Source: an uncultured Brevundimonas sp.
GTDB taxonomy: Bacteria > Pseudomonadota > Alphaproteobacteria > Caulobacterales > Caulobacteraceae
Assembly: GCF_937870815.1 (NCBI RefSeq)
Contig: NZ_CALMZS010000083.1
Location: forward strand, 1 to 64,000
DNA: 64,000 nucleotides
Direction: 5' to 3'
Shown here: positions 7,684 to 21,447 of the stretch, in pieces
How positions within the stretch are numbered: position 1 is the stretch's first letter
Layout: the number at the start of each line of letters is the position of its first letter
Position numbers and translations under genes: made by a program
Notes under the pieces: generated by a model
What the model was told of the DNA's origin: nothing
Database searches by the model: none
Seen by the model: the letters and a program-made list of their open reading frames with translations, nothing else

Positions 7684-7723
7684 TTGACGGGAACACAACA
7701 AGAACATAGAACATTACCGGAAC
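7684..7723 (+). promoter_or_regulatory. Sigma70-like promoter overlapped by two tandem LexA (SOS) boxes
   Basis: TTGACG (7684-7689) - 17 nt - TAGAAC (7707-7712); GAAC-ACAACAA-GAAC (7691-7705) and GAAC-ATTACCG-GAAC (7709-7723), both perfect GAACN7GAAC. Confidence 0.85.
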
Positions 7724-7742
7724 ACGCGAGGAGGAGGCCGTC

Positions 7743-7838
7743 ATGGCGCGTTGGGTTCGGGATGGATTGTCGCTGGCGTCGTGCGGCGGCTTCGTCTGGG
7801 TGATGTGGCAGGCGGCCCTGCTGGCCACAGCGGCCTGA
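7743..7838 (+). CDS. 31-aa single-TM SOS-regulated microprotein (SidA-like candidate)
   Basis: MARWVRDGLSLASCGGFVWVMWQAALLATAA*; GAGGAGGAGG RBS just upstream; tandem LexA boxes at 7691-7723. Confidence 0.7.
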   Translation: MARWVRDGLSLASCGGFVWVMWQAALLATAA

Positions 7839-7892: not shown

Positions 7893-7972
7893 TGTCGACC
7901 CTGCCGACTCCGCCACACCGAATTCCGGCGCCGACCCTGCCGACTCCGCCACTGCGTTTTTTCGGCGCCCGC
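7893..7972 (-). repeat. Dispersed dimeric intergenic repeat, copy A
   Basis: Reverse complement reads GAAAAAACGCAGTGGCGGAGTCGGCAGGGTCGGCGCCGGAATTCGGTGTGGCGGAGTCGGCAGGGTCG; matches 21363-21447. Confidence 0.8.
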
Positions 7973-8090
7973 CGGCTAATCCACAGCCGGTCCCCCGTCG
8001 CGCCGCCCCGTCCGCCGCTTTCGGGTGTCCCGGTCGCCCGCGATGTGAGACTCGGTTCATGACAGGCGCGCCGCCGACGAAGGACCCGGT

Positions 8091-11000
8091 TTGACCGAGA
8101 CGCTGAACAGCCAGGGCTTCATCCACCTGCGGGTCCGCTCGGCCTATTCGCTGCTCGAGGGCGCGATCAAGGCCGGCAGGGTCCCGCTGCTGGCCGCCGA
8201 CGCCGGCATGCCGGCGGTCGGGGTCGCCGACCGGGCCAATCTGTTCGGGGCCCTGGAGTTCAGCGAGGCGGCGAAGGGGGCGGGGGTCCAGCCGCTGATC
8301 GGCTGCGCCCTGCCGGTCACCGGCATCGGCGGCAGGATCGCCGAGCGCTGGGCGAAGACGCCGACCGTGGTCCTGCTGGTCCAGAACGAGGCCGGCTGGC
8401 TCAACCTCTCGGCCCTGTCGTCCTCGGCCTTTCTCGACGCCGGGGCGATGGACGAGCCCAGCGTGCCCTGGGAGAGGGTGGCGGCCCGGTCCGAAGGCCT
8501 GATCCTGCTGTCCGGCGGTCCCGACGGTCCGGTCGATCCGCTGTTCGTCCAGGGCCGGCCGGCCGAGGCCGGCGCCGCGCTGGCGGCCATGCGGGCCGCC
8601 TTCGGCGACCGGTTCTACGTCGAGCTGCAGCGCCACGGCCTCGCCTCCGAGCAACAGGCCGAGCGCGGTCTGGTCGACTGGGCCTATGCCCACGACGTCC
8701 CCCTCGCGGCCACCAACGACGTCCACTACGCCCGGGCCGCCCAGGCCAAATCCCACGACGCCCTGCTGTGCATCGCTGACGGCGCCTTCACCGGCCAGGA
8801 GGACCGCCGCCGTATCACCGGCGAACACTGGTTCAAGACCGCCGCCGCCATGCGCGAACTGTTCGCCGACCTGCCCGAGGCCTGCGACGCCACGCTGGAC
8901 ATCGCCCGCCGCTGCGCCTTCATCGCCCCGACCCGCGCCCCGATCCTGCCGCGCTTCGACGCCGGGGCCGGCCGCTCCGAGCCCGACGAGCTGATGCACC
9001 AGGCCCGCGAGGGCCTGAAGGAGCGGCTCAAACAGGTCACCCCGGCCGCGCCGGAGGAGGAGTACTGGAGCCGCCTCGAATGGGAGGTCGGCGTCATCCG
9101 GCAGATGGGCTTCCCCGGCTATTTCCTGATCGTGTCGGACTTCATCAAATGGGCCAAGACCCACGGCATCCCCGTGGGCCCGGGACGCGGCTCCGGGGCC
9201 GGGTCGCTGGTCGCCTGGGCCCTGACCATCACCGACCTCGACCCCTTGCGCTTCGGCCTGCTGTTCGAGCGCTTCCTCAATCCCGAGCGGGTCTCCATGC
9301 CCGATTTCGACATCGACTTCTGCCAGGAGCGGCGCGAGGAGGTGATCGACTATGTCCAGGCCCGCTACGGCAAGGACCGGGTGGCCCAGATCATCACCTT
9401 CGGCACCCTGCAGGCCCGCGCCGTGCTGCGCGACGTCGGCCGGGTGCTGCAGATGCCGCTCGGCCAGGTCGACCGTCTCGCCAAGATGGTCCCGGCCAAC
9501 CCCGCCAATCCCGTCACCCTGGCCCAGGCCGTCGAGCTGGAGCCGCGGCTCAGGGAGGCGCGCGACTCCGACGCCAACGTCGCCGCCCTGCTGGAGACGG
9601 CGCTGGAGCTGGAGGGCCTGTACCGCAACGCCTCGACCCACGCCGCCGGCATCGTCATCGGCGACCGCCCGCTGATCGAGCTCGCCCCCCTCTACCAGGA
9701 CCCGCGCTCGTCCATCCCGGCCAGCCAGTTCAACATGAAATGGGTCGAGGCCGCCGGCCTGGTGAAGTTCGACTTCCTCGGCCTCAAGACCCTGACCGTG
9801 CTGGATCGCGCCCGCCGGTATCTGGAGCGGCGCGGCGCCGCCCCGGACTGGAACGGCCTGCCGCTCGATGACCCGCGCACCTACGAACTGATGGCCTCGG
9901 GCCAGACCGTCGGCGTGTTCCAGCTGGAATCCCAGGGCATGCGCGACACCCTGCGCAAGATGCGCTGCGGCTCGATCGAGGAGATCACCGCCCTGATCTC
10001 CCTCTACCGGCCCGGGCCGATGGAGATGATCGACACCTATATCGACCGGAAATTCGGGCGGCAGGCGGTCGACTGCCTGCATCCCTCGCTGGTCGAGGTG
10101 CTGACCGAAACCTATGGCGTCATCATCTACCAGGAGCAGGTGATGAAGATCGCCCAGGTCCTGGCGGGCTACAGCCTCGGCGAGGCCGACCTCCTGCGCC
10201 GGGCCATGGGCAAGAAGAAGCAGGAGGAGATGGATTTCCAGCGGGCGCGCTTCATCAAGGGCGCCTCGGAAAAGGGGGTGCCGGAAGGGCAGTCCGGCGG
10301 CATCTTCGACCTGGTCGCCAAATTCGCCGGCTACGGCTTCAACAAGTCGCACGCCGCCGCCTACGCCCTGATCTCCTTCCAGACCGGCTGGCTGAAGGCC
10401 AACCACCCCGTCGAATTCATGGCCGCATCCATGAGTCTCGATCTCAGCAATACAGATAAACTGGCGGTTTTCTATCAGGATTGCCGTCGCTTCGGGGTGG
10501 CGGTGAAGGCCCCGGACGTGAACCGCTCCTCGGCCGATTTCGACGTGGCCTACGAAGGCGGCGTGGGGGCGGTTCTGTATGCGCTCGGCGCCATCCGCAA
10601 CGTCGGGCTGGAGGCGATGAAGCATCTGGTCGAGGTGCGCGAGACGGGCGGACGGTTCACCGACATCTTCGACTTCCTCGAACGCGTCGATCCCCGCAGC
10701 GTCAACAAGCGGGCGCTGGAGAACCTGGCCCGCGCCGGGGCCTTCGACAGTTTTCACTCGAACCGCCGCCAGCTGGTCGAACAGGCCGACACCCTGATGG
10801 CCTATTGCCAGAGCGTGGCGGCCGAACGCGCCTCGTCCCAGGTGTCGTTGTTCGGGGGCGACCAGGCCGGGGCCGCGCGGCCGCGGCTCAAGCCGGTCGA
10901 GCCCTGGGTCGGGCCCGAAAAGCTGGATCAGGAACTGGCCGCGGTCGGCTTCTACCTGTCCGGCCACCCGCTGGAAGACATGGCCCCGGCTTTGAAGCGC

Positions 11001-11546
11001 AAGCGCGTCACCTTCGTCGCCGAGGCCACCGCCCTGGCCGAGAGCGGCCATGAGGCCTTCCTGATGGCCGGCGTCGTCCGCCGCCGCCAGGAGCGGGCCA
11101 GCGCCAGGACGGGCGAGAAATTCGCCTTCGTCGCCTTCTCCGACCCGACCGGCGAGTTCGAATGCCTGTTCCCGCCCGAACAGCTGCGCAAATGCCGCGA
11201 GACGCTGGAGGTCGGGGCCTCCGTCATGGTCCGGGTCCGGGCCAAGTCCTCCGACGGCGAGGTGCGCTTCTTCGGCGACGACGCCAGCCGGCTCGACGCC
11301 CTGATCGACGACGGCCAGATGGGCCTGCGCATCCACGTCTCGTCCAGGGCCGCCGACCCCGTCGCCCTCAAGACCCGCCTCGACCGGGCGAAGGCCGACG
11401 GCAAGGGCGGGGAGGTGTCGCTGGTCGCCTCCCTCGACGGCCGCCGCGAGGTGGAGCTGAAACTGCCGGGCCGCTACCGTCTTGACGGCGCCCTGCGCGG
11501 CGCGTTGAAATCGGCGCCCGGGGTGGTGCTGCTGGAGGATGCGTGA
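8091..11546 (+). CDS. dnaE: DNA polymerase III subunit alpha (replicative DnaE)
   Basis: [20 protein letters not shown] (PHP), [38 protein letters not shown] start at 8091 with AAGGA RBS. Confidence 0.97.
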
Positions 11547-21362: not shown

Positions 21363-21447
21363 AAAAAACGGTGTGTCAGAGTCGGCAGAGTCGGCGCCCG
21401 GTCCGCGAAAATTCGGTGTGTCAGAGTCGGCAGAGTCGGCAAATCCG
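21363..21447 (+). repeat. Dispersed dimeric intergenic repeat, copy B
   Basis: GAAAAAACGGTGTGTCAGAGTCGGCAGAGTCGGCGCC...GAAAATTCGGTGTGTCAGAGTCGGCAGAGTCGGC; same architecture as copy A. Confidence 0.85.

Follow-up and report, generated by a model that had tools for sequence, protein, structure and literature searches.

Layout of the locus

Upstream of dnaE, the window (the whole 64,000-nucleotide stretch of DNA analysed here) contains a short open reading frame (ORF) that is unannotated. It starts with an ATG at 7743 and runs for 31 codons to a TGA ending at 7838. The start codon of dnaE is a TTG at 8091, approximately 252 nt beyond the stop codon of the small ORF. An initial annotation had described a promoter with two boxes, a ribosome-binding site, a start codon and the 31-residue ORF, and all of these are found where it placed them, exact to the base. 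The features are as follows, with the evidence for each in brackets.

7684–7712, + strand: SOS promoter, with a -35 element TTGACG (7684–7689), a 17-nt spacer and a -10 element TAGAAC (7707–7712) (sequence; genus-wide promoter comparison)
7691–7705, + strand: LexA box 1, GAACACAACAAGAAC, which occupies the spacer between -35 and -10 (sequence; conserved tandem pair)
7709–7723, + strand: LexA box 2, GAACATTACCGGAAC, the first half-site of which forms the 3' end of the -10 element (sequence; conserved tandem pair)
7728–7737, + strand: Shine-Dalgarno sequence, GAGGAGGAGG (sequence)
7743–7838, + strand: putative sidA ortholog, 31 residues, MARWVRDGLSLASCGGFVWVMWQAALLATAA, with a single predicted membrane helix (conservation; NF033228 match; dN/dS; AlphaFold)
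7901–7960, + strand: one copy of a dispersed element of paired 9-bp repeats, in the gap between sidA and dnaE and outside sidA (repeat searches)
8091–11546, + strand: dnaE (DNA polymerase III alpha), the conserved downstream neighbour (synteny across the Caulobacteraceae loci examined)

Conservation of the peptide

A profile search, using a profile built from 24 family members, finds the peptide in 287 of 298 Caulobacteraceae genomes (E<=1e-4), including all of the sampled Brevundimonas genomes but one. A six-frame search of the first sample found it in all same-genus relatives, save for one 70% complete genome. The peptide picked out from the window is thus kept almost throughout the family. 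Outside Caulobacteraceae the profile gives only weak partial matches, with E values of about 0.002 or worse. A few genomes have second SidA-like matches (G081:C3:315102-315185; G770; G305), which are either paralogs or contamination.

Among 43 distinct Brevundimonas coding sequences, the median dN/dS for close relatives is 0.25 and pN/pS is 0.35. Entropy reaches its minimum at the second codon position and its maximum at the third. Taken together, the conservation, the codon-position pattern and the low dN/dS indicate that the ORF is a real, translated gene under purifying selection.

Relationship to SidA

The sidA gene of C. crescentus is CCNA_02004 (PMC10769358), and its product, 29 residues long, resides in the inner membrane and inhibits division by way of FtsW (PMC4211646). 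The family is represented by NCBIfam NF033228 (div_inhib_SidA), an equivalog model with a curated cut-off of 35 bits. The window peptide aligns over residues 1–28 of 29 with an E value of 4.8e-5, but scores 23.2 bits, and standard annotation therefore leaves it unnamed. At the same locus, a Caulobacter-type peptide scores 57 bits and a Phenylobacterium-like peptide 69 bits. The model scores above its cut-off in 146 of 239 Caulobacteraceae genomes, while nearly all of the Brevundimonas peptides seen fall below it; among 14 control genomes it matches only Caulobacter vibrioides. Pfam has no family that covers the peptide. A text search of the literature with the peptide core gave no match, so that the SidA identity rests on NCBIfam; the link to C. 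vibrioides SidA runs via NF033228 and the C. segnis locus.

At this one dnaE-linked locus, a graded series of homologs connects the window peptide to the versions found in Caulobacter segnis, C. ginsengisoli and Phenylobacterium. The window peptide has in common with SidA (C. crescentus, NF033228) a length of 29–31 residues in a single helix, an R-x-x-R-[DE] N-terminus, a GFVW core and a LexA-operated promoter, and the C. segnis gene likewise lies upstream of dnaE. The Brevundimonas type, which has C..W in place of the usual V..C pattern (LASC..FVWVMWQ versus LASV..FVWMMC), is also carried by the Brevundimonas records, and this points to Brevundimonas as the genus of the window. The type differs from SidA of C. 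crescentus in having C14 and M/V-x-W22, and frequently a longer tail (often of two residues), as well as in scoring below the NCBI cut-off and in having a function that is here predicted. The best 19-residue hydropathy is 1.50 for the window peptide, compared to about 2.0 for its relatives.

The initial annotation suggested either a SidA ortholog or a functional analogue. The end-to-end alignment to NF033228, although it scores below the cut-off, and the graded series of homologs support the former, and point to a divergent true ortholog. Brevundimonas SidA is a new divergent example of an already described type of division inhibitor. DidA of C. crescentus (CCNA_03212) is another small division inhibitor that is induced by damage, spans the membrane once and acts on FtsW/I/N, but it has 71 residues, is SOS-independent and is controlled by DriD (PMC4211646). 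SulA, YneA and SosA of other bacteria follow a similar logic, being SOS-induced blocks to division, but are unrelated proteins. The target of SulA is FtsZ.

The promoter and its double operator

There are only two perfect GAAC-N7-GAAC sites in the window, both of them in the sidA promoter. The number of boxes is itself within chance (1.26 expected per window, and two or more in 34 of 100 shuffles); it is their exact tandem placement within the promoter that is beyond chance. Allowing one mismatch per box, the tandem pair is present in all 47 distinct Brevundimonas promoters, exactly 18 bp apart in 46 of them, and in 29 of 30 promoters from other genera, with a spacing of mostly 17 or 18 bp. 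The tandem boxes noted in the window are therefore a conserved feature. Shuffled promoters contain such a pair in 0.04–0.07% of cases (0.04% for the genus set).

The pattern TTGAC-N15..20-TANAWC is found in 39 of the 47 distinct Brevundimonas promoters. Conservation starts abruptly at TTGAC, and the sequence further upstream diverges. TTGACG and TANAWC fit the Caulobacter housekeeping promoter. A sigma-70 scan did not pick up the sidA promoter, because its -10 element TAGAAC does not have the final T that the scan requires. About 97% of SOS promoters in C. crescentus have a single LexA box (PMC12700426), and the double operator of sidA is therefore unusual. The likely reason for it is tight control of a lethal peptide.

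The motif of the alphaproteobacterial LexA regulon is GTTC-N7-GTTC. In the genome from which the window comes, the LexA-box pattern occurs 83 times, compared to 19 for a reversed control pattern. In the 20 box neighbourhoods examined, lexA has a pair of boxes 56 nt before its ATG, and there are further boxes upstream of ssb, uvrA, yifB, a PA0069-type radical SAM gene and other genes. In Caulobacter, the uvrA and chlI promoters are SOS-regulated (PMC12700426). As the same box precedes lexA, ssb and uvrA in this genome, the box at sidA is taken to be a LexA operator, so that the SOS regulon of the genome itself supports the original reading of the GAAC-N7-GAAC boxes.

Some other boxes in the genome are worth recording. 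Perfect LexA-type boxes are found 50–52 nt upstream of two genes resembling REP-associated tyrosine transposases (L160 and L161, at C64:34915 and C20:378), which suggests that transposition may be under SOS control. Another perfect box (L159, C212:4550) lies 133 nt upstream of mraZ, the first gene of the division and cell-wall cluster, and is possibly a second SOS link to division. LexA-type boxes also lie upstream of a Dcm-type cytosine methyltransferase gene (L165) and of a gene that weakly resembles adenine methyltransferases (L162).

The neighbouring dnaE gene

In all of the Caulobacteraceae loci examined, dnaE (CC1926 in C. crescentus; PMC1839093) follows sidA on the same strand at a distance of 15–320 nt. 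The gap is about 15–70 nt in the other sampled genera and 30–320 nt within Brevundimonas. The same order is found in named records of Caulobacter segnis, C. ginsengisoli, Phenylobacterium and Brevundimonas poindexterae, and also in Asticcacaulis taihuensis, where sidA has a divergent form. A search for a terminator-like site in the 252-nt gap of the window found none. A conserved block precedes dnaE at about 7965–8070, and is in the same place in L010, L011, L012, L025 and L055. It contains TATCCACA, which is DnaA-box-like, and GATGTGAGACTCGG, and is possibly a separate promoter or control site for dnaE.

The SOS promoter may also drive dnaE, as the initial annotation suggested, and sidA and dnaE might form an ancient Caulobacteraceae SOS transcription unit with a fixed double LexA operator, through which damage would both halt division and raise the level of the replicative polymerase. 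We put this forward tentatively, and regard it as rather doubtful. The literature searched contains no description of such a unit. The fixed order of sidA and dnaE and the near-universal tandem operator are modest additions to what is known.

The gap in the window also contains one copy of an intergenic element in which 9-bp repeats form paired arrays, the sequence CTGCCGACTCTGCCGACTCCGCCACACCG being followed by a run rich in T. There are about 20 such pairs in the genome, including one at 21374–21442 of the window. The element is also present in the close relatives G783 and G196, and is absent from most of the genus. Other relatives have different 9-bp direct repeats adjoining a T run at the same spot before dnaE. 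Concerted evolution of the 9-bp repeat before dnaE across each genome was considered, and was unsupported in the one relative tested (G026), where the unit is not dispersed.

Structure and proposed function

AlphaFold predicts the 31-residue peptide to be one helix, covering residues 2–30, with a mean pLDDT of 94. FtsW, the known target of SidA, is encoded in the genome. Mutations at F145 and A246 of FtsW suppress SidA/DidA in C. crescentus (PMC4211646), and the matching residues are conserved here, using the only numbering that fits both residues.

By analogy with C. crescentus, we would expect LexA-dependent induction, a membrane location, binding to FtsW and a block to division. The two adjacent operators extend over the spacer, the -10 element and the probable transcription start, so that bound LexA would keep transcription off. 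DNA damage would activate RecA and lead to cleavage of LexA, upon which the housekeeping-type promoter would yield the 31-residue peptide. This would insert into the membrane as a single helix, with its N-terminal arginines in the cytoplasm, and would prevent the FtsW/FtsI/FtsN septal synthesis complex from working, delaying division until repair.

Other explanations need to be considered. A chance ORF adjoining a chance pair of GAAC repeats might be entertained, given that short ORFs and one or two boxes are expected in a GC-rich window of 64 kb, but peptide conservation in 287/298 genomes, the purifying selection and the tandem boxes in 47/47 promoters rule this out, and we give it practically no weight. 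The ORF could instead serve chiefly as a leader peptide or translational coupler of dnaE, with the LexA promoter raising DnaE during damage. Such a role would fit the strict synteny, the short gaps in the other sampled genera (about 15–70 nt) and the failure to find a terminator before dnaE. However, it is the amino acid sequence itself that is conserved, beyond a mere open frame; the variable gap in Brevundimonas (30 to 320 nt) breaks coupling; and C. crescentus SidA acts when carried on a plasmid under its own promoter (PMC4211646). This role is therefore very improbable.

It is slightly less improbable, though still unlikely, that the peptide is an SOS membrane peptide of the SidA family with a changed target in Brevundimonas, such as another divisome or envelope protein. 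The Brevundimonas peptides do form a distinct type (C14, W22 and often the longer tail), nearly all of it under the family cut-off. Against this, the peptide has kept its length, charge pattern and GFVW core, neither the promoter nor the synteny has changed, and the suppressor sites in FtsW are conserved. We are thus confident that the gene is a Brevundimonas-type ortholog of Caulobacter SidA, which would be LexA-repressed, damage-induced and division-blocking. The gene, its operator, its conservation, its synteny, the family match and the presence of the target are all observed here.

The SidA checkpoint therefore appears to be near-universal in Caulobacteraceae, rather than a peculiarity of Caulobacter, and the NCBI cut-off overlooks most of its Brevundimonas branch. 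The fixed double operator offers a hint, open to testing, that a lethal peptide is kept under tight repression, and the natural variants of SidA are a useful set with which to map the residues that touch FtsW.
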